Shown piece by piece: positions 20,691-48,901 of a DNA stretch of 50,460 nucleotides. A model generated the notes under the pieces. That model saw only the letters and a program-made list of their open reading frames with translations. It had not been told where the DNA came from and made no database searches. How positions within the stretch are numbered: the stretch's first letter is position 1; each line of letters starts with the position of its first letter. The DNA is from a virus: the IMG/VR virus record IMGVR_UViG_3300028114_000019, positions 1 to 50,460 of that record. One strand, given 5' to 3'. A program made the position numbers and the translations under genes.

Positions 20691-22205
20691 CTAACTTAAA
20701 GCAAATATCAACCCAACTAAAGACTCAGCGTTAACAGGCAGGTTATTTCCAATAACTTCTAGAGCCGCATTACCAGAAGCCAGAGCTTTAACACTGTCAG
20801 CTAAAGCACTATTGCCCGAAACAACAGCATACAAACCAGACGAAATAGAATTATTAGAAACTTGTTGGTTAGTAACGGCTGTCGAAACTGCAGCGTTACC
20901 AGAAGCCAAAGCTACAGCTGAAGCCGAAATAGAGGCCACGCCAGAGCTAAAAGCAGTAGAAGCTAAAGTTAAACTGGCGTTTCCAGAAGCTTGAGCCGTA
21001 GCTGTCAAGACTAAGGCCGCATTACCAGAAGATAAAGTTGTTAAAGCTGTGGCAATAGCAGCGTTTCCAGACGCCACGGCGGTAGGCGCGTTAGCTAAGG
21101 CCGCATTACCAGAGGCTTGAGCAAGAGCAGAAGGTGCAAAAGCAGCTTGTCCAGAAGCAATTGCTCGAGTAGCTATAGGTAAAGCAGCACTACCAGACGC
21201 AATGGCTGGAATACTGTTCTCAACCGCATCATCACTAATAAGAAAAGTAAATAAATTAGTTGTAAGCGAGTCACTAACGTCATCTAGAGCATTAATAGAA
21301 TTTATTATTGCGGCGTTACCCGAAGCTAAAGCCTGAGTAGTTAGTACTCCGGCAGCAACACCGGAGGCCAAAGCTGTTGTGGACTCGATAACCGCAGCAT
21401 TACCCGAAGCAAAAGCTAAATTTGCATCAGCTAAGGCAGCATTACCAGAAGCTAAAGATAAAGCAGAAGATAAAATAGCAGCACTACCGGAAGCTATACC
21501 AAAAACACTAACTTGATCCGCCTCAAATCCAGAAGCAACAGCAGTATCGGAAACAAGTACAGCTTGAGTTCCAGATAAAACTGTTGAGTTAAAGTTAAAT
21601 AAAGCTGCATTACCGGAACTTAAGGCAGAACCTGCAATAAAAGCAGCAGAAGCGCCGGAAGCAAATGCTTGAGTAGAAGCAGTTGTACTAGCTAGCCCAG
21701 ATGCAAGAGCCTCAGAACTATTAATTAAAGCTAAATTACCTGACAACAACGCTGAAACAGAGACACCTAAAGCTGCGTTAGACGCCGAAACAGCAGATAA
21801 ACCTGAACTAATTGCGTTATTTGAAGCAACTAACGCATTATTCGCAACTACAGAAGCAGCGTTACCCGACAAAGTTGCCGTAATTGCACCAGATAAAGCA
21901 ACAATTCCAGACGCCAGAGCAACGGCAGCAAAAGAACTAGCTGCCACGCCGGAATTTAACGCCGTTGTAGAAAGTGTTAAATCAACACCGTCCGCGCCTA
22001 ATTTGCCTTCATTTGTTATTAATAAACCGCTGGAGTTTGCTAAAGAGGCTGTAAAAACTCTAGCTGTGTTGCTCACACCTAAAGGTAGTACAACACCGCC
22101 TAAACCACTACCTGCTACTAAGTCACCTAAAGCTGAAATTTGATCGGTACTGTCAATTTCAGAAATCAGACCATCAGAATATATAAGGGGGCGAAAAGTT
22201 GCCAT
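20691..22205 (-). CDS. Long repeat fibre protein with ASGN repeats (degenerate)
   Basis: 504 residues. The N-terminus (MATFRPLIYSDGLISEID, GAGSG-like turns, LGADGVDL) is the attachment type seen in tail fibres. From about residue 85 to 490 the chain is a degenerate array of about 14-residue units with the core (A/S)SGNAAL. It ends in ESLVGLIFALS. It is paralogous to the next gene but its repeats are less regular, with an insert of about 40 residues near the middle (DDVSDSLTTNLF). Expected to form a thin trimeric shaft; Ala/Ser/Gly content is very high. The three fibre genes 20691, 22207 and 24851 share the C-terminal motif. Confidence 0.75.
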   Translation of the reverse strand: MATFRPLIYSDGLISEIDSTDQISALGDLVAGSGLGGVVLPLGVSNTARVFTASLANSSGLLITNEGKLGADGVDLTLSTTALNSGVAASSFAAVALASGIVALSGAITATLSGNAASVVANNALVASNNAISSGLSAVSASNAALGVSVSALLSGNLALINSSEALASGLASTTASTQAFASGASAAFIAGSALSSGNAALFNFNSTVLSGTQAVLVSDTAVASGFEADQVSVFGIASGSAAILSSALSLASGNAALADANLAFASGNAAVIESTTALASGVAAGVLTTQALASGNAAIINSINALDDVSDSLTTNLFTFLISDDAVENSIPAIASGSAALPIATRAIASGQAAFAPSALAQASGNAALANAPTAVASGNAAIATALTTLSSGNAALVLTATAQASGNASLTLASTAFSSGVASISASAVALASGNAAVSTAVTNQQVSNNSISSGLYAVVSGNSALADSVKALASGNAALEVIGNNLPVNAESLVGLIFALS

Positions 22206-22206
22206 A

Positions 22207-23718
22207 TTAAGAAAGGGCGATAATTAAACCAATTGCTTCTCCCTGAGAGATCCCAGGGTTAGCAAAATAAAGTGCTAAAGCTGCGTTACCAGAAGCCTGA
22301 GCAGCGGGAACAATAGTTAAAGCTGCATTACCAGACGCCAATGCAGTATTTGACACACTTATAGCTGCATTACCAGAACTTAAAGCAACACCAGCAACGA
22401 CAAGACCTGCGTTACCAGAAGCCAGAGCAACCGCAGCATTAACAAGACCTGCGTTACCAGAAGCTAAAGCCGTACCAGCAAGTGAAGTTCCAGCATTTCC
22501 AGAAGCTAAAGCAACAGCTGCAGCACTTAAAGCCGCATTACCAGACGCAAGACCTGTTAAAGCTAAAGAAATACCTGCATTACCAGACGCTAAAGCAGTG
22601 TTTACAGCTGCTAAGGCTGCATTACCAGACGCTAAAGCAGTTGAAGCAACAGATAAACCAGCATTACCGGAAGCTAAAGCATTAACAGAAACGGTTAAAG
22701 CTGCATTACCAGAAGCTAAGGCGGCCACAGATATATTTTGGGCCGAAATTCCTGAAGCTAGTGCAATGTTTGCTTGTTGGACAGCGTACTGTCCTGAAGT
22801 AACAGCAATATTTGAGAGTACAACAGCAGCGTTACCAGAGGCAATTGCAGTTACTGACTCTACGAGAGCTGCATTACCAGACGCCAAAGCACGATCTGCT
22901 AAAGAAAGTGCGGCATTACCAGATGCAAGTGCAGAAACAGATACAGTAACTGCAGCGTTACCAGACGCAAGTGCAACAACAGAGTCAGCTAAACCCGCAT
23001 TACCGGAAGCTAACGCCATAACTGAAGTTGTTAAAGCAGCGTTCCCTGAGGTACGTGCAACAACAGCAACGGATAGCGCAGCGTTACCAGAAGATAAAGC
23101 AGTGTTGCTAAGACTTAAAGCAGCATTACCAGATGCAAGTGCAGTAACAGCGTTAGTTAGACCCGCGTTGCCAGAAGCTAAAGCAGTTGAGGAGAGAACT
23201 AACGCTGCATTACCAGATGCAAGCGCAACAGCTGAATCTGTAACGGCAGCGTTACCAGAAGCAAAAGCAGTGTTTGCAACAGATAAGGCAGCATTACCAG
23301 AAGCTAAAGCTGTGTTGGCAACACTTAGGGCAGCATTACCAGAAGACAGTGCTGTAGAAGCTATGCTTAAACCAGCATTACCAGACGCCAGAGCAGTTAA
23401 CGATAAAGATATACCTGCGTTACCTGAAGCTAAAGCCGTATTTGCATCAGATAAACCAAGATTACCTGATGCAAGAGCATCTTGAGAACGTTTTAATGCA
23501 ACACCGTCAACACCGATATTGCCACCGGCAAAAACTAACCCGCTAGGTTGGGCAGTTAGTGCAACATCTAACCTTATAGTCTGTGTGGTGTCACCACCGC
23601 CGACTAAACCACTACCGGCAGTTAACGTACCACCTGATGCAAGCGCAATAACGCTGTCGCCTAGGGGTAGCTGAGCTAGGCTACCACTGACTAAAACAAC
23701 AGGTCTACGGATTGCCAT
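22207..23718 (-). CDS. Long repeat fibre protein with 29 ASGNAAL-type repeats
   Basis: 503 residues. Residues 1-79 are an N-terminal fibre-attachment domain (RRPVVLVSG, LPLGDSV, GSGLVGGGDTTQTIRL, GVDGVAL). Residues 80-485 are 29 uninterrupted units of exactly 14 residues, consensus TALASGNAALSxxx. Residues 486-503 end NPGISQGEAIGLIIALS. The N-terminal GLxGGGD motif is typical of tail-fibre proteins. The gene ends one base before its paralogue starts. I infer a trimeric, repetitive shaft presenting a conserved tip; the exact fold is not known. Confidence 0.8.
   Translation of the reverse strand: MAIRRPVVLVSGSLAQLPLGDSVIALASGGTLTAGSGLVGGGDTTQTIRLDVALTAQPSGLVFAGGNIGVDGVALKRSQDALASGNLGLSDANTALASGNAGISLSLTALASGNAGLSIASTALSSGNAALSVANTALASGNAALSVANTAFASGNAAVTDSAVALASGNAALVLSSTALASGNAGLTNAVTALASGNAALSLSNTALSSGNAALSVAVVARTSGNAALTTSVMALASGNAGLADSVVALASGNAAVTVSVSALASGNAALSLADRALASGNAALVESVTAIASGNAAVVLSNIAVTSGQYAVQQANIALASGISAQNISVAALASGNAALTVSVNALASGNAGLSVASTALASGNAALAAVNTALASGNAGISLALTGLASGNAALSAAAVALASGNAGTSLAGTALASGNAGLVNAAVALASGNAGLVVAGVALSSGNAAISVSNTALASGNAALTIVPAAQASGNAALALYFANPGISQGEAIGLIIALS
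22264..23481 (-). repeat. 42-bp tandem repeat array (29 units) inside fibre gene
   Basis: The 14-residue units correspond to a 42-bp period; each copy keeps a core that reads on the plus strand like GCATTACCAGAAGCTAAAGC. Copies differ at many third positions and in the last four residues. The divergence argues for selection at protein level after old duplications, not recent expansion. Confidence 0.85.
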
Positions 23719-40822: not shown

Positions 40823-40830
40823 ACCTCCTC
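40823..40830 (-). promoter_or_regulatory. Strong Shine-Dalgarno site for the 292-residue virion protein
   Basis: GAGGAGGT, 8 bases upstream of the ATG, partly overlapping the capsid-protein stop codon. It fixes the start and couples translation to the capsid gene. Confidence 0.8.
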
Positions 40831-41835
40831 AAGCGTCGAAAGAGTAGGCAACGGTGACGAAGTCAGCGTTCAGAAGTTCGAAACCTGCGTACAGGCTCCA
40901 AATCATCATGATGAAACGGCTGAAGTCATCGTTGTTGTTGAGTAGCACTTGGGCGTTGTTACCGCCAATGCCAACTCCAGTGGACTGCGGACCAAAGAAG
41001 ATACCGATCGCAGAGTTGTAGCTCTGTGAACTGGATGCAATGGTCGCAGCCTGTGTTTGTGTAGGCATGTTGGTGCTTTCGAAGAAGCGCACACCTTCAA
41101 ACACAAAGCCCGTGGGCATAATCGGTTCGCCAGCCACGAAGGTAGCTTGACCGAAGCCCTGACCCATGTACAGAGCAGCGTTAGGCTGCATGCCGGACAT
41201 AAGTGGGTTGATTTGACCGTTGCCAGGGTAACGAGCAACTTCACGGAAGTCACTGTTCTGACGCAGGTGCATCAAGAAGGTAGGATCGCAAACACAGCGA
41301 TAGAAACCGTCTTGGAAGGTAGGAGTGTTCCTCTTACGCAGGCTCTTCACCACGCGCAAAAGGTCATCCTTAACGTCGAATTTGGCTTGTTCGGCGTTGG
41401 TATAGCTAAGACTTCCAACGGCTAGATCGCCAGGGAAGTAGTAACCACCTTGGGTGTCAGAAGACTGACCCTTTGATACTGCTTTAAGGAGTTCATTGAT
41501 GAACACCCGATCACGCCAACGACGATAGTCGTCGAGCAAAGTCAGGCTACCAATGGATTGGTGGAAAGTTGTGAGGCTGCCGGTATCCAGCAAAAGACGC
41601 TGGGCAGTGATCAGAGTCTCGCGAGCAATTTTGAAAGTGCTTGGCTGAGTTGGATCACTAGGGTCAGCAGGGCCGGTGTACTCCTTAAGAGTCACCTGAA
41701 CCTTGTCCTTCACAATGTTGCGGCTGTTTGCAGTACCGATTGTTTGCTCGGCAGTGCGCTCGCGAGATTCTTTGGAGCCAGGGTTACCGAAGAAACGGTA
41801 ACGATCAAGCTGAACCGTCTGGCCGGGTTGTTTTG
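40829..41835 (-). CDS. Major capsid protein, exon 2
   Basis: The second exon of the split capsid gene. The joined product (42833-42941 plus 40829-41835) has 371 residues, with 109 + 1007 = 1116 bases. The exon begins at HDF|SKQPGQTVQLDRYRFF if the proposed junction is right. It runs through a long core with repeated helices and ends FVTVAYSFDA. Other open codons upstream of 41835 belong to intron hairpins. The protein resembles cyanophage-type HK97-fold capsid proteins by the RPHPAYIVEM...PGQTVQLDRYRF layout (from memory). Adjacent genes (scaffold, portal) support the assignment. Confidence 0.8.
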
Positions 41836-42832
41836 CCTGAAATGCTTCGATGAGCACCGTGAGGTTCTTTATCCTCACGTAACATCAACTTAAGGACGTT
41901 GATGAGTAGACTATATCATCACCCACAGCAAGAATTATCTTCTGTTTGGGTGTTCCGCGCTCGTGTCACCTTATCGGCTTCTACAACAAATTTGTTGCGG
42001 TCAGCCTCGCTCCACTTTGACTTACCTCGATTAGTTCGAGTGTCGTAGCGAAGGTCGAACTTGTAGCTCATGGCTTTACATCCGTATGGTTTTAAAGCCT
42101 CTACGAACAAACGAGCTTGAGTGCCGTTACCACGAAGATTCCATTTATTTGGACTCTTCGTTTTCATCGGCTCTCTCGGAGTTAATGAGGCTCCGGTTAA
42201 GCTCTCGATCCAATCGGACACAAATAAAGCTGTGTCATAAGGAACGTATAAAGCCAGCTCTACAATACGCTCCCGTACATAAGGTTCTCCTGTTTGCGTG
42301 GATTGACCACGCTTGCGAAGATGAAGGTTTCCGTCGTCCATATAAAGAACGGCTAATCCCTCTAAGCCAATATCCCGTAGAAAAGAAGGTGTGAGCACCT
42401 TTATTCCTTGTGGGTATAGCTCCTTATATAAAGGAAGCAGTAGCTCTTGTTGATTAGACCACCACTGACAACCAGGAAAACTTCCTGATTGGTTTGTGCA
42501 TACTCTATCCTTAACTGGCTGTTTTATTCCAAAAATTCTGTTTAAGCGTCCCACTTTCCAGCGGAGATACTCAAACTGTTTTTTGGAGTGCGTGAGCACG
42601 AGATTCGGATAAGTAACTTGATGCCTTAGACATCCGTCACCTATACAAACACCTTTAAGGAACGAGCGGTCGCTTCGAGAGAGCATTCGAGCAGTGTTAG
42701 TCGTTGAACCTTCCAACCATTTCGGGTTGGCTTGGCTGCTGATTGACCTCCCTTACGGGTCCGGCTTTCCAGCAATTCACGGAATTGTTCGACCGAGCTT
42801 TCACTCGGAAGTTCCCAGACCTTAGCAGGTCA
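41836..42832 (-). ncRNA. Group I intron interrupting the major capsid protein gene
   Basis: A 997-base insert separates the two capsid exons. On the minus strand, the 5' exon end TTCT pairs with GGAA and the adjoining GACCT-GCTA-AGGTC hairpin forms P1 with a U-G pair at the splice site. The P7 strands can be seen as AACGACTA (42698-42705) and ATAGTCT (41908-41914). P9 hairpins CATCAAC...GTTGATG and CGTGAGG...CCTCACG follow, and the intron would end in G. The open frame 41919-42686 sits between the P7 strands. Splice sites are my best fit, not verified. Confidence 0.75.
41919..42686 (-). CDS. LAGLIDADG homing endonuclease inside the group I intron
   Basis: 255 residues from the ATG at 42686; a TTG at 42716 would run into the intron core. 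Two LAGLIDADG-type motifs are visible: FLKGVCIGDGCL near residue 10 and GLAVLYMDDGNL near 112. The second half has WNLRGNGTQARLFVEALKPYGC, typical of these enzymes. It would cut the intron-less capsid allele and so spread the intron. The stop lies just before the P7 3' strand, a normal place for such an ORF. Confidence 0.9.
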   Translation of the reverse strand: MLSRSDRSFLKGVCIGDGCLRHQVTYPNLVLTHSKKQFEYLRWKVGRLNRIFGIKQPVKDRVCTNQSGSFPGCQWWSNQQELLLPLYKELYPQGIKVLTPSFLRDIGLEGLAVLYMDDGNLHLRKRGQSTQTGEPYVRERIVELALYVPYDTALFVSDWIESLTGASLTPREPMKTKSPNKWNLRGNGTQARLFVEALKPYGCKAMSYKFDLRYDTRTNRGKSKWSEADRNKFVVEADKVTRARNTQTEDNSCCG

Positions 42833-42941
42833 AGAAGTCATGAACAACCACAGGTTCCGCAGCCATCTCGACGATGTATGCGGGGTGAGGACGGTAAAGT
42901 TCTGCACCAAGAATCTTCGGAAAATCGTTATCGATAAACAT
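42833..42941 (-). CDS. Major capsid protein, exon 1
   Basis: Codes for the N-terminal 36 residues, starting MFIDNDFPKILGAELYRPHP and ending with HDF at the splice site. ATG at 42941 has AGGA 8 bases upstream; an in-frame TAA lies farther upstream. Without splicing, the frame stops at TAA (42822-42824) soon after the intron start. The short exon explains why the capsid gene looks N-terminally truncated in simple ORF calls. Confidence 0.8.
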
Positions 42942-43901: not shown

Positions 43902-44264
43902 ATGGTCAATGCAGAAAAATTTCTAACAATATTTTTTGAAGACCCAGAAGCTTCGATAGCCTGTTTTTCGGGTTCTTTAACGGATTCTCTCGTGCACCCA
44001 CAAAAGCGATCCAAACTTGTTGTGTACCTTGTTAAAACAACTGTTGTCGGATTATTTCTAGCTACATTTATTAGTCCAGTTTTTCACGATAAATTTAAAT
44101 TAACAAAAAATGAAGCCATCGCGGCCTCTTTTATCTGCGGTTATGCCGGAATTCGTATGCTTAACGCAGCTGAAAAATACTTTGAATACGAAATCCAAAA
44201 AAGATTACGTAAGCTTCAGCTAAGCTCCACGGAGCCTTCAAAATCAGACGACAGCTCAACTTGA
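43902..44264 (+). CDS. Two-span membrane protein, candidate holin
   Basis: 120 residues. Membrane segments at about residues 39-60 (VVYLVKTTVVGLFLATFISP) and 70-88 (NEAIAASFICGYAGIRML), followed by a charged helix (LNAAEKYFEYEIQKRLRKL). This matches the two-span holin topology of phage. The GYAGIRxLNxAE motif is typical of a phage holin group in my recollection. Read opposite to the surrounding late genes. The small minus-strand gene 44216-44380 overlaps its 3' end by 49 bases. Confidence 0.65.
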   Translation: MVNAEKFLTIFFEDPEASIACFSGSLTDSLVHPQKRSKLVVYLVKTTVVGLFLATFISPVFHDKFKLTKNEAIAASFICGYAGIRMLNAAEKYFEYEIQKRLRKLQLSSTEPSKSDDSST

Positions 44265-44461: not shown

Positions 44462-45379
44462 CTAAGAAGCATCCATGAACAGGAGCTTGCTGCGAAGAGC
44501 TTCGGGCCCAATCTGACTGAGATAACGCCAGGCGTTCTCTGGGCTGCGATTCATCACGTCACCAAAAGTCTCCCACTGTTGTTGAGGAGCTGGTGCCTGA
44601 GTAGACCCACCGGCATTAGCAGGGGGTGCGGGCATATCGTACCTGGGCTGATAAGCCTGGGGAGCTTGTTGACCTTGTCCGGGAGAGTCAATGTCCACAG
44701 GATAGACTTCAGTGAAGAAGCGGTCAGTATAGTTGGCTAAGTGATCGGGATTGGTCAAGATAGTCTCCATAGCGTCGTGACGCAGTGCGAGATTATCCAT
44801 ACGACCCGCCTGATCCATCAGCATGTCCTCAAGAGCACAAGAGTACTGATTGAGAATGCCTGGAGCCTCGATACCGAAGTGGTTAACTACGGCGTGAGTT
44901 GCGGGGCTTAGACCGTGTGGGCCGCTTTGTGGGGCCGTAGAAGTCTGCGAGGAAACCTGGGTCGGTGAGACGCTGGTAGGCAAGGTCTGCGCTACCTGCT
45001 GTGCCTGGTAAGCCCAAGGTTGGACCTGTGAAGCCAGATTGCTCTGTTGAGTAACCTGCGGCTGTGCCACCTGGTAAGGCGACGGTTGAGCCTGGCTGGG
45101 GTACGGCGGGTTGATCTGCGTAAGCACCCGCTCCAGTGAACCCATCGCTGCTTCCCACGGATTGTTGGGGGAGGACGGCGACGTTAACTGGTTGTACTGG
45201 CTGTTGGTAGTAGGCCCCGTAGTCGGTATTCCCGGCGACGGCAATTGGGCTGTAGCTGCCGAAGCTACCGCCGGGGTAGGCGTTTGGGTTACCCACTGGG
45301 GGTAAGCGGTTGAGCCCTGGTCCGAGGCTACTGCCTGGGAGACCGGGCTCGGGGTCGAAGCTTGGATCTGCTGGCTCAT
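44462..45379 (-). CDS. Scaffold-like capsid assembly protein, overlapping the portal gene
   Basis: 305 residues. The first 155 are Pro/Gln/Ser/Thr-rich (disordered). The C-terminal half has HAVVNHFGIEAPGILNQYSCALEDML, given here in parts: HAVVNHFG, EAPGILNQY, CALEDMLMD, plus NAWRYLSQIGPEALRSKLL. This block order is typical of cyanophage head-assembly (scaffold) proteins in my recollection. The first 497 bases overlap, in another reading frame, with the portal gene 3' end. Terminator follows at 44411-44438. Confidence 0.75.
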   Translation of the reverse strand: MSQQIQASTPSPVSQAVASDQGSTAYPQWVTQTPTPAVASAATAQLPSPGIPTTGPTTNSQYNQLTSPSSPNNPWEAAMGSLERVLTQINPPYPSQAQPSPYQVAQPQVTQQSNLASQVQPWAYQAQQVAQTLPTSVSPTQVSSQTSTAPQSGPHGLSPATHAVVNHFGIEAPGILNQYSCALEDMLMDQAGRMDNLALRHDAMETILTNPDHLANYTDRFFTEVYPVDIDSPGQGQQAPQAYQPRYDMPAPPANAGGSTQAPAPQQQWETFGDVMNRSPENAWRYLSQIGPEALRSKLLFMDAS

Positions 45380-47108
45380 AGCTACCCGAGTAGGTTAGTT
45401 CTTCCGCGAGATGGTCGAAAGTTCTATAGATTAGCGGAGTGATATTCAATCTCGGATCAGCTGCAAGCGGTTGGTTAGGCGCAAGCGGATGAGGAGATTG
45501 CAACATCTGTTGTAATAATACCAGAAATTGTTGCATAGCTGACTGAGTTTGTTGAACCATACGGAAAGGGAAACCCCTCAACATTTCAGCCCGCTCAGCA
45601 TCAGTTTTTTCTGGAAATAAGAACTTCAACGCTTCTATACTATCAACTCCCAGCTCTTGTAGGTTACGAACAACAATAGATTTTTGGTTTACATCGTAAG
45701 CCGTATCTTCATAAACATCACCTTGATACCTATAAGTAACTGTACGATCACCATCTTCTGGTAACCCAATAACCCCACGAGGTACTTTATTCTCTGCCAG
45801 GGCCACCTTCATCACCTGATTTAGCTTCCCTTCAAACTTTACATTTGCAATTTGATACTTTTCAATTGCTTCAGGTGTTTGTTCTGTCGGAGGCTTTGGT
45901 TCTTTTAAACCCGAAGCAGCTATAAATGACTCTCGAAAAATTAATTCTTGGTGATAAATCATCATCTCAAGGAGACGATTAAATCCATACGCAAGAAATG
46001 ATTTATTTTTTCTTAATGCTGTGGCCTGAGCTCGACCCATCAAACCTTTAATTTCAGTCGCAGTGGCACCGGCTGAAATTGAAATCTCATCAACACCACC
46101 TAATGCAGTACGTATCTCTTCTCTTAACAACAAAAGATATCTGCTCATGTCCCCGTTAACGGGGTCAGGTGTCATATAGCCCACACGGTCGGAAGGTTCT
46201 ACGTTCGCAATAATTCGCGGAACACGCAGGCCACCACCCATCGAGGCGCCGAAAGGTTCACTTACTCTTGTCGACGGGCTATCGACTCCAGAAAAACCAC
46301 TCTGACTGCTGATCGTAGGTCTAAAAGTTGACTGACTATCTGACGCTTCGACAAGATCACTACGTGGACGCGAACTAATTAGTGTTGGATTACCAAAAAA
46401 TTCAATGTTCTTAGAAATGTTCCGTGCAAGTTGGTCGTGGAGAACAATTTGCTCCATAAAAGGATCAAATTCGCCTTCTCCCTCTGTTCCACTTGCATTT
46501 GGTTTGTTTAATACCTCGACAGCTGGTATAAAACCAAGCATGTTAGGCCTTTTTTTACTTGGAGTTAAAATTGCACCTGGTTCAAGCTCAAAACTTAATT
46601 CACTATCAGTTTCGACCTCACTAATCTCTTCAGCTGTAATAGAAAGTCGAACGTACCGTTTATTTTGCCCGTACGCATTACTAGGTAGACCTAAAGTACT
46701 GTTTTTAACTTTATAGCTGTAGATAATGATTACTTCTTCTACTTCACCGTTTACATCGTGATAAACGCGATATTGATTTTTGTTAAAAAAGTAAATCTGG
46801 TATTTTAACTTTGGGTCAGGGCGAAAATAAAAAAGACCAGCACCATCAATTAAGAAATTCCTGATAATCGAAGGAAATCGAATATCAATCTTATTCAGCT
46901 TTATGACGTTGTCTAAAAACTTTGAACGACTTTTATACGTATCCTGATCACAGTAGAATGTTACACCCTTCTTAATCATAAGAAGAGTCATCTGCTGTAA
47001 ATGGCTTAAAACAACCATCGTGGCCGATTGGTTGCTTCGATCCTGGGTGCGTGAGGCCTCCAGGATCTCATTAAACCGTTTTCTGGTCTCAGTTGAGCTC
47101 GCAGACAT
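44883..47108 (-). CDS. Portal protein with a disordered C-terminal tail
   Basis: 741 residues. The first about 550 have the portal layout: helix-rich start (RKRFNEILEASRTQ), NKQYRVYHD-like strands, LIxxRPRSDLV, then LREEIRTALGGVDEISISAGATATEI, typical of portals around the stem/crown region. Residues about 575-741 are Pro/Gly/Gln/Tyr-rich and overlap the scaffold gene in another frame; the end SADLAYQRLTDPGFLADFYG, then TKRPTRSKPRNSRRS, still reads like a conserved tip. It forms the DNA entry ring. No terminase gene sits next to it in this window. Confidence 0.85.
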   Translation of the reverse strand: MSASSTETRKRFNEILEASRTQDRSNQSATMVVLSHLQQMTLLMIKKGVTFYCDQDTYKSRSKFLDNVIKLNKIDIRFPSIIRNFLIDGAGLFYFRPDPKLKYQIYFFNKNQYRVYHDVNGEVEEVIIIYSYKVKNSTLGLPSNAYGQNKRYVRLSITAEEISEVETDSELSFELEPGAILTPSKKRPNMLGFIPAVEVLNKPNASGTEGEGEFDPFMEQIVLHDQLARNISKNIEFFGNPTLISSRPRSDLVEASDSQSTFRPTISSQSGFSGVDSPSTRVSEPFGASMGGGLRVPRIIANVEPSDRVGYMTPDPVNGDMSRYLLLLREEIRTALGGVDEISISAGATATEIKGLMGRAQATALRKNKSFLAYGFNRLLEMMIYHQELIFRESFIAASGLKEPKPPTEQTPEAIEKYQIANVKFEGKLNQVMKVALAENKVPRGVIGLPEDGDRTVTYRYQGDVYEDTAYDVNQKSIVVRNLQELGVDSIEALKFLFPEKTDAERAEMLRGFPFRMVQQTQSAMQQFLVLLQQMLQSPHPLAPNQPLAADPRLNITPLIYRTFDHLAEELTYSGSYEPADPSFDPEPGLPGSSLGPGLNRLPPVGNPNAYPGGSFGSYSPIAVAGNTDYGAYYQQPVQPVNVAVLPQQSVGSSDGFTGAGAYADQPAVPQPGSTVALPGGTAAGYSTEQSGFTGPTLGLPGTAGSADLAYQRLTDPGFLADFYGPTKRPTRSKPRNSRRS

Positions 47109-47286: not shown

Positions 47287-48096
47287 TTAGTCATCTGGAA
47301 GAAGATACTTTCTGACTCTTTCCAGTGTAACCGCTTCTAGCGGTAAATTCTCCATTGGAAACGCAGTAAGCATATGATCTTCTCGACCCAACATATCTAT
47401 ATTGCCGGGTACTGCTTCAAATGTCTTACAGGTCTCGACAACAGTAGGCATATCGGTCTCCCAATGTGCGTAAGATTTAAGTTTTTTAAGTCTCCTTTCA
47501 GAGTCACCCATCCAACTTAAATGCCACCCAGCATCACGGTCTCCTATTACCTTACGTGTAGTCTGACGACGAACATTTGTTATAGATCCTAATGAAGCAA
47601 GTCTTCCTGCAGTGCAGATCGTTGCACAATGCCAGTGAAAAAGCTCACCAAGGGGAGTACAGAGCTGTAAATCTGCCCTCCCGTAGTGCATGGACATATC
47701 CAAACCTAAAATTGCATCAGGATTTGCCTCAAGTTCAGTTTTTATCTGTTCAAATTTTGCTGGGTTAGGGAGTTCGTCACAGTCAGAACAAATAAAAACA
47801 GCATTTTTTGGCATTTCCGAGAGATAAACACCAAGAGCATCGCGTTGTCCACGCTCACGGACCCAATGATCCGGTTCCTCGTCAACAGGCGGAAGTTTGA
47901 CGTGGATAACCTCGATCAAATCAGCGGGTAAACCTAACTCCTTAATGGTTTCGGCACAAGTAAAAGCCTTCGGCTCTCCTCTATGAGTTCGATCCGCATC
48001 TGCAATTAAAAAACCATCGACATGATCCTTTAATAAGGAAATGCGTAATTCAAGTAACTCGCGTTCGTTAAAATAAGGAAAACAATCAATTAACAT
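47287..48096 (-). CDS. GT17-like glycosyltransferase, copy B
   Basis: 269 residues. The family GT17 (beta-1,4-mannosyl-glycoprotein N-acetylglucosaminyltransferase-like) pattern is clear: MLIDCFPYFNERELLELRI, then DRTHRG, WVRERGQRDAL, and the metal-binding DCDEL at 105-109 (FICSDCDEL). The later GWHLSWMGD block is also typical. It would move a sugar onto a glycan, protein or surface structure. It overlaps its paralogue by 11 bases, so it arose by tandem duplication. Confidence 0.85.
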   Translation of the reverse strand: MLIDCFPYFNERELLELRISLLKDHVDGFLIADADRTHRGEPKAFTCAETIKELGLPADLIEVIHVKLPPVDEEPDHWVRERGQRDALGVYLSEMPKNAVFICSDCDELPNPAKFEQIKTELEANPDAILGLDMSMHYGRADLQLCTPLGELFHWHCATICTAGRLASLGSITNVRRQTTRKVIGDRDAGWHLSWMGDSERRLKKLKSYAHWETDMPTVVETCKTFEAVPGNIDMLGREDHMLTAFPMENLPLEAVTLERVRKYLLPDD

Positions 48097-48901
48097 TTTC
48101 AGGAAGGAGATAGGTTTTGACGCGCTCTAACTCAAATAATTTTGAGGGCAGAGCGCTTAAAGGATAAGTGGTAATTAAGTGATCGTCACGCCCAAGCATA
48201 TCGAGGTTTCCCTCTTGGGGTTCAAACAGCTCACATCTGCGCTGTACGTCTGGTGTGTCCCACATATAGTACTCAGCAATAGATCTGAGTTTATTCTTTC
48301 GTCGTACACCGTCACCCATCCAACTTAGATGCCAACCAAAATCTCTTTCACCCAGATACAGATTATCTTGGCTCTCCCTCATTACGGAGAGTGTGCTGTG
48401 TTTCTTTAAAAAACCAACCGTAGAAACAAAAGCTCGTTGCCACTCATGCAGAACACCATCAGGAGTTATTAACTGCCGATCAGCGCGTCCATAGTGCATA
48501 GACATGCTAGCCCGCACTACTTGCTTTGAAGTTTCAGCTGCGGTTTTTAGCTTATCTAATTTAAGAGGATTGACTAGCTCATCACAGTCGGAGCAAATAA
48601 AGAACGTTTCGTCTGAACACATATGAAGCCCAACACCTAAAGCATCGCGCTGGGCTCGTTCACGCAACCACGGATCTGGTGCTTCCTCAATAGAAGGTAA
48701 CTCAACGTGTAAGACTTGAACTTTACTGTCGTCGATACCAAGTTCTTTAAGAGTATCGACGCAGGTAAAAGGCTTTTCGTCACCTCGATGCGTTCTGTTG
48801 GCATCTGTTATCAGAAATCCGTCAACGTAATCTTCGAGAGTCCTAATACGGAGTTCTAGTAGTTCTTTCTCGTTAAAGTACGGAAAGCAATCGATAAGCA
48901 T
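48086..48901 (-). CDS. GT17-like glycosyltransferase, copy A
   Basis: 271 residues, with the same blocks as copy B: MLIDCFPYFNEKELLELRI, DANRTHRG, WLRERAQRDAL, FICSDCDEL (metal site at 105-109) and GWHLSWMGDGVRR. Identity with copy B is roughly half by eye. Both look intact. Two GT17 copies next to a third glycosyltransferase at the window end suggest a glycan-modifying module, perhaps acting on virion fibres or the host surface. Confidence 0.85.
   Translation of the reverse strand: MLIDCFPYFNEKELLELRIRTLEDYVDGFLITDANRTHRGDEKPFTCVDTLKELGIDDSKVQVLHVELPSIEEAPDPWLRERAQRDALGVGLHMCSDETFFICSDCDELVNPLKLDKLKTAAETSKQVVRASMSMHYGRADRQLITPDGVLHEWQRAFVSTVGFLKKHSTLSVMRESQDNLYLGERDFGWHLSWMGDGVRRKNKLRSIAEYYMWDTPDVQRRCELFEPQEGNLDMLGRDDHLITTYPLSALPSKLFELERVKTYLLPENVN

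Follow-up and report, generated by a model that had tools for sequence, protein, structure and literature searches.

A viral DNA stretch of 50,460 nt (IMG/VR record IMGVR_UViG_3300028114_000019, analysed over its whole length and hereafter termed the window) carries on its minus strand a portal gene whose last 497 nt also form, in a different frame, the beginning of the following gene. The explanation preferred here, at a probability of about 0.88, is an ancient dual-coding overlap of two disordered segments, the downstream product being likely a scaffolding protein that is initiated internally. About 500 nt would thereby encode the disordered tail of the portal protein as well as the disordered first half of the downstream protein, and ribosomes initiating at a start codon within the portal gene would yield a separate second protein with a dosage of its own. 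We infer that both frames are translated and that the tail of the portal reaches into the interior of the head. The genes and their shared segment are as follows.

44883..47108, minus strand: portal CDS, 741 aa (ORF; phrog_20475, phrog_64 and AF2 fold).
44462..45379, minus strand: second CDS, 305 aa, ATG start, probable scaffolding protein (ORF; no family match).
44883..45379, minus strand: dual-coding overlap, 497 nt (purifying selection in both frames).

The upstream ORF matches phrog_20475 (virion structural protein, E=5.5e-164) and, weakly, phrog_64 (portal, E=7e-7). Its AF2 model retrieved many phage portals of the PDB with Foldseek (best E=7.7e-11), the matches listed being portals of phages, next to those of SaPI and haloviruses, at E of about 1e-10 to 2e-6. 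Designation of this ORF as portal in an earlier note on the same DNA is borne out by these fold matches and is thus supported at the level of the predicted structure. Four features were distinguished in the C-terminal part.

44886..45398, minus strand: disordered C-terminal tail of the portal, residues 571-741 (AF2 pLDDT <50 throughout).
45087..45110, minus strand: P-x-P-G motif of the portal, residues 667-674, in the overlap (conserved in relatives).
44982..44996, minus strand: GSADL motif of the portal, residues 705-709, in the overlap (conserved in relatives).
44886..44930, minus strand: basic C-terminus of the portal, last 15 residues, Arg/Lys-rich, in the overlap.

The overlap begins at portal codon 576-577, adjoining the onset of disorder at residue 571. 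P670 and G673 as well as G705 and D708 are invariant in 16 diverse portals; the patterns [LIV]P.[PA]G and G.[AP]D[LI] occur in 268 and 241 of 281 relatives, respectively, and at least four Arg or Lys residues are present among the last 15 portal residues in 277 of them.

The second CDS is conserved in all relatives and is located between the portal and MCP genes in the window and in two relatives (L165 and L168). The N-terminal half of its product is rich in Pro, Gln, Ala and Ser, and the AF2 model, of low confidence overall, has pLDDT <50 over most of residues 1-158 and is predicted to be helical in the C-terminal half thereafter. A single helix was predicted in the N-terminal half:

45113..45160, minus strand: residues 74-89 of the second protein, conserved PWE helix (NNPWEAAM motif), in the overlap.

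The pattern [NS]P[WY] was found in 277 of 281 overlaps. The recognisable scaffold domain claimed in the earlier note found no counterpart, since the second protein matches no family in PHROGs, Pfam, NCBIfam or PDB sequences, and Foldseek detected no fold match for the low-confidence model. Capsid scaffolds are very divergent and often undetectable by family and fold searches; the gene position, the size, a P/Q-rich disordered N-terminus and a helical C-terminal half are usual for them. From position, composition and predicted helices, the second protein is most likely a capsid scaffold. A genuine dual-coded pair in which the second protein serves the head in some role other than scaffolding, such as that of an internal or minor structural protein, is unlikely but has to be reckoned with: scaffold families and folds were unmatched, against which stand the location between portal and MCP, the size, the P/Q-rich disordered N-terminus and the helical C-terminal half.

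For the distribution of the overlap, viral contigs were queried with portal sequences from several lineages, and an alignment of two clades served as query for genome contigs, yielding >330 loci, and counting was restricted to the 282 loci with a complete portal end. A +1-frame ORF that begins inside the portal gene and runs beyond the portal stop is present in 281 of these 282, with an overlap length of 446-683 nt (median 524; 229 distinct sequences). The remaining locus (L107) was considered as a relative devoid of the overlap and rejected, its premature portal stop lying in the last bases of the contig and being judged an assembly-end error; apart from this artefact, no relative with a stop in one of the frames was found, an observation that would have counted against the earlier note. 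Lineages whose portals are only 35-38 % identical still possess the overlap, including Nodosilinea nodulosa PCC 7104 (683-nt overlap, portal identity 38 %), and a second cyanobacterial genome, retrieved by the family search, harbours a 344-nt overlap in the same frame. Only two carriers of the portal family were detected among 386 genomes of the cyanobacterial phylum. Several loci originate from MAGs labelled as unrelated organisms, labels that are probably binning errors and uninformative on hosts. Overall, the overlap is fixed across a broad environmental lineage of cyanobacterial viruses, a widespread group.

In the window, the second CDS is read in the +1 frame relative to the portal CDS and stays open past the portal stop. 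With portal codons synonymously re-chosen, the +1 frame was open at P<=0.0005; conversely, the portal frame was open at P<0.0005 with second-gene codons re-chosen according to the usage of the downstream part, and at P=0.046 with these codons permuted within the overlap. In L168 and L171, simulation indicated that, with the portal sequence held constant, chance would often leave the +1 frame open (P 0.33-0.5), and open frames alone are therefore less telling in some lineages. Permutation within the overlap led to an expectation of 2-5 stops in the portal frame, which is open in all relatives.

Selection was assessed with an approximate, self-written estimator modelled on OLGenie; dSS was saturated and left out. 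In the window clade, the overlap showed ratios of 0.30 [0.22-0.40] for the portal frame (dNN/dSN) and 0.38 [0.28-0.49] for the +1 frame (dNN/dNS). The corresponding values were 0.59 and 0.26 in the S-EIV1 clade, 0.62 and 0.44 in the marine clade, and 0.47 and 0.29 in the L168 clade, with bootstrap limits of both ratios <1 in all four clades. Frames not in use served as controls, with values of 0.57-0.94 for +1 in the upstream portal region and of 1.2-1.5 for the portal-like frame in the downstream part of the second gene; the +1-frame controls below 1 imply some bias, and the overlap values are clearly lower. Third-position divergence in the window clade decreased from 0.43-0.49 in the upstream portal to 0.23 in the overlap, and amounted for the second gene to 0.20 in the overlap versus 0.49 downstream, synonymous change being suppressed most strongly over the initial third of the overlap; the divergence pattern of the S-EIV1 clade is alike. 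Additionally, lineage pairs were compared by keeping one protein, permuting synonymous codons and scoring similarity in the other frame. Similarity exceeded the forced level in 14/15 pairs for the +1 frame (P<=0.03) and in 11/15 pairs for the portal frame (P<=0.033), similarity of the portal tail between the window and distant lineages being weak (z 0.8-2.4). A codon-usage polarity test for the older frame gave correlations near 0 for both frames.

Both frames are hence under purifying selection in the four clades, which was the synonymous-constraint check proposed in the earlier note, and its suggestion of overprinted low-complexity disordered tails is supported by selection on both frames and by pLDDT <50 throughout the portal segment and over most of the other. 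Long open frames together with selection on both amino acid sequences place the overlap in the dual-coding class. It is very unlikely that the second frame alone is functional and the portal tail a product of passive translation. Such a situation would agree with the predicted disorder of the tail and with the S-EIV1 clade, where portal position 1 is most variable and the second frame dominates in the overlap (portal dNN/dSN 0.59); it is opposed by portal limits below 1 in four clades as compared to 1.2-1.5 in the control, by a portal frame open in all relatives despite the expected stops, and by the P..G and G.xD motifs and the basic end conserved in the tail.

The start region of the second gene comprises two features.

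45377..45379, minus strand: second-gene start codon, within the portal CDS (ATG in 63/63 loci of the window clade).
45381..45389, minus strand: pre-start codons TCG GGT AGC, portal Ser-Gly-Ser (near-invariant in the window clade).

The portal Tyr codon over the ATG is TAT in 50/50 aligned window-clade sequences, although in the rest of the gene only 57 % of Tyr residues are encoded by TAT. The three preceding codons are identical in 48/50 (TCG), 50/50 (GGT) and 50/50 (AGC) sequences, with background codon frequencies of 0.14, 0.52 and 0.23, respectively, and may possibly constitute an initiation element of the window clade. No good SD match was detected upstream of the start in this clade, nor in L163 and L164. 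In the S-EIV1 clade, AAG GAG ATG AGT TAT is invariant in 56/56 sequences, placing AAGGAG seven bases 5' of an ATG formed by TAT-GCA, and the invariance of the SD region holds at synonymous sites (Ser AGT in 56/56 versus 8 % background). The marine clade displays AAG GAG in 76/76 sequences ahead of an invariant GTG start. Synonymous variation ceases at the start codon of the second frame. A start further downstream, which would have spoken against the earlier note, was not encountered; all starts coincide with the upstream ATG, or GTG in the marine clade.

The invariant start and the SD found in several clades argue for independent internal initiation of the second protein. Termination-reinitiation is excluded because ~500 nt separate the second start from the portal stop downstream of it, and RNA folds around the start were no better than those of shuffles (z 0.07, 1.87, -1.08, 0.09, -1.43); the co-translational coupling of portal and scaffold contemplated in the earlier note thus remains unsupported. 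A portal-scaffold fusion, with the second frame reached mainly by +1 ribosomal frameshifting, could be formed since this frame is open beyond the portal stop, but is most unlikely to be the main route in view of the separate initiation implied by the start and SD and of the copy numbers, scaffolds being required in far more copies than the portal.

Synechococcus phage S-EIV1 (KJ410740) was the only isolate genome found, and the overlap is unannotated there. Its portal is 46.8 % identical to that of the window over 99 %, its overlap is in the same frame and spans 554 nt, and its second protein shares 32.9 % identity with that of the window in the C-terminal half. The window virus thus possesses a head module homologous to that of S-EIV1-like cyanophages. 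The overlap was missed in S-EIV1 because the second gene of the GenBank record begins only beyond the portal stop (59863-60264, 133 aa, versus 325 aa when the overlap is included), so that the N-terminal 192 residues, located in the overlap, are missing from it. No description of an out-of-frame portal-scaffold overlap was found in the literature searched, the main S-EIV1 paper being outside it. The reading embodied in this record, i.e., that only the portal frame is functional, the second gene is confined to the 133 codons beyond the portal stop and the +1 ORF is a compositional by-product, can draw on the capacity of Pro/Ser/Gly-rich low-complexity tails to keep the +1 frame open (as in L168 and L171), but is dismissed as barely tenable given purifying selection on the +1 frame in four clades, a start and SD invariant at synonymous sites, the NPW motif in 277/281 and the window-clade peak of synonymous suppression over the initial third of the overlap.

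In large dsDNA phages, long overlaps between different frames are considered rare, and gene callers filter them out. In-frame nested scaffold genes of the lambda C/Nu3 type resemble the present dual-coding arrangement in that the scaffold start lies within an upstream head gene, but there frame and sequence are shared, whereas the present pair uses different frames and involves the portal. A known precedent for out-of-frame overlap in phages is provided by the spanin genes, which gene callers often miss (PMC6139136). The Rz/Rz1 spanins (embedded in lambda, overlapped in P2) likewise overlap out of frame on the same strand, +1 in lambda, T7 and P2 (PMC6139136); the likeness is one of architecture only, as Rz/Rz1 are lysis genes with membrane signals, while head-assembly genes with a terminal overlap of ~500 nt are concerned here. 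Gene overlaps of dsDNA viruses are mostly very short. Among those beyond 1 and 4 nt, +1 same-strand is the commonest class (median 14 nt; PMC8903798), as compared to the 446-683 nt retained here across deep lineages.

The overlap joins two core head genes, corrects a structural-gene start in the S-EIV1 lineage and offers a natural system for the evolution of two disordered segments on shared DNA; other portal-scaffold junctions merit re-examination. A rather doubtful, though conceivable, extension is that the portal tail and the disordered segment of the second protein bind each other, such that the tail would dock the scaffold, the portal would nucleate procapsid assembly and the shared DNA would tie together changes in the two halves of the interface. 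If true, the two partners of an assembly contact would be specified by a single DNA stretch.

Further features of the window were observed outside the overlap. Directly upstream of the portal gene, 47287-48901 (minus strand) harbours a pair of neighbouring paralogous ORFs of 269 and 271 aa, each beginning with MLIDCFPYFNE, the first of which has no PHROG match. Two ORFs of ~500 aa at 20691-23718 (minus strand) consist of ALASGNAAL-type repeats, and a long mirror ORF lies opposite to them at 22598-23485, for which the repeats are probably the cause. The major capsid gene (40829-42941, minus strand) is split into a 36-aa 5' exon (42834-42941) and the rest from ~41857 to 40829 (phrog_1357). The two parts are separated by ~1 kb without in-frame read-through, within which a 265-aa LAGLIDADG homing-endonuclease ORF (41919-42716) is located. 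This interruption looks like a self-splicing intron; it has no Rfam match at gathering level. A near-identical LAGLIDADG ORF is present in a few close relatives (L002, L034, L039, L044 and L003). Most other relatives yielded none, and L165 and L168 have a continuous capsid gene. Within the minus-strand head cluster, a holin-like ORF (phrog_2359, E 9e-4) is encoded on the plus strand at 43902-44264.
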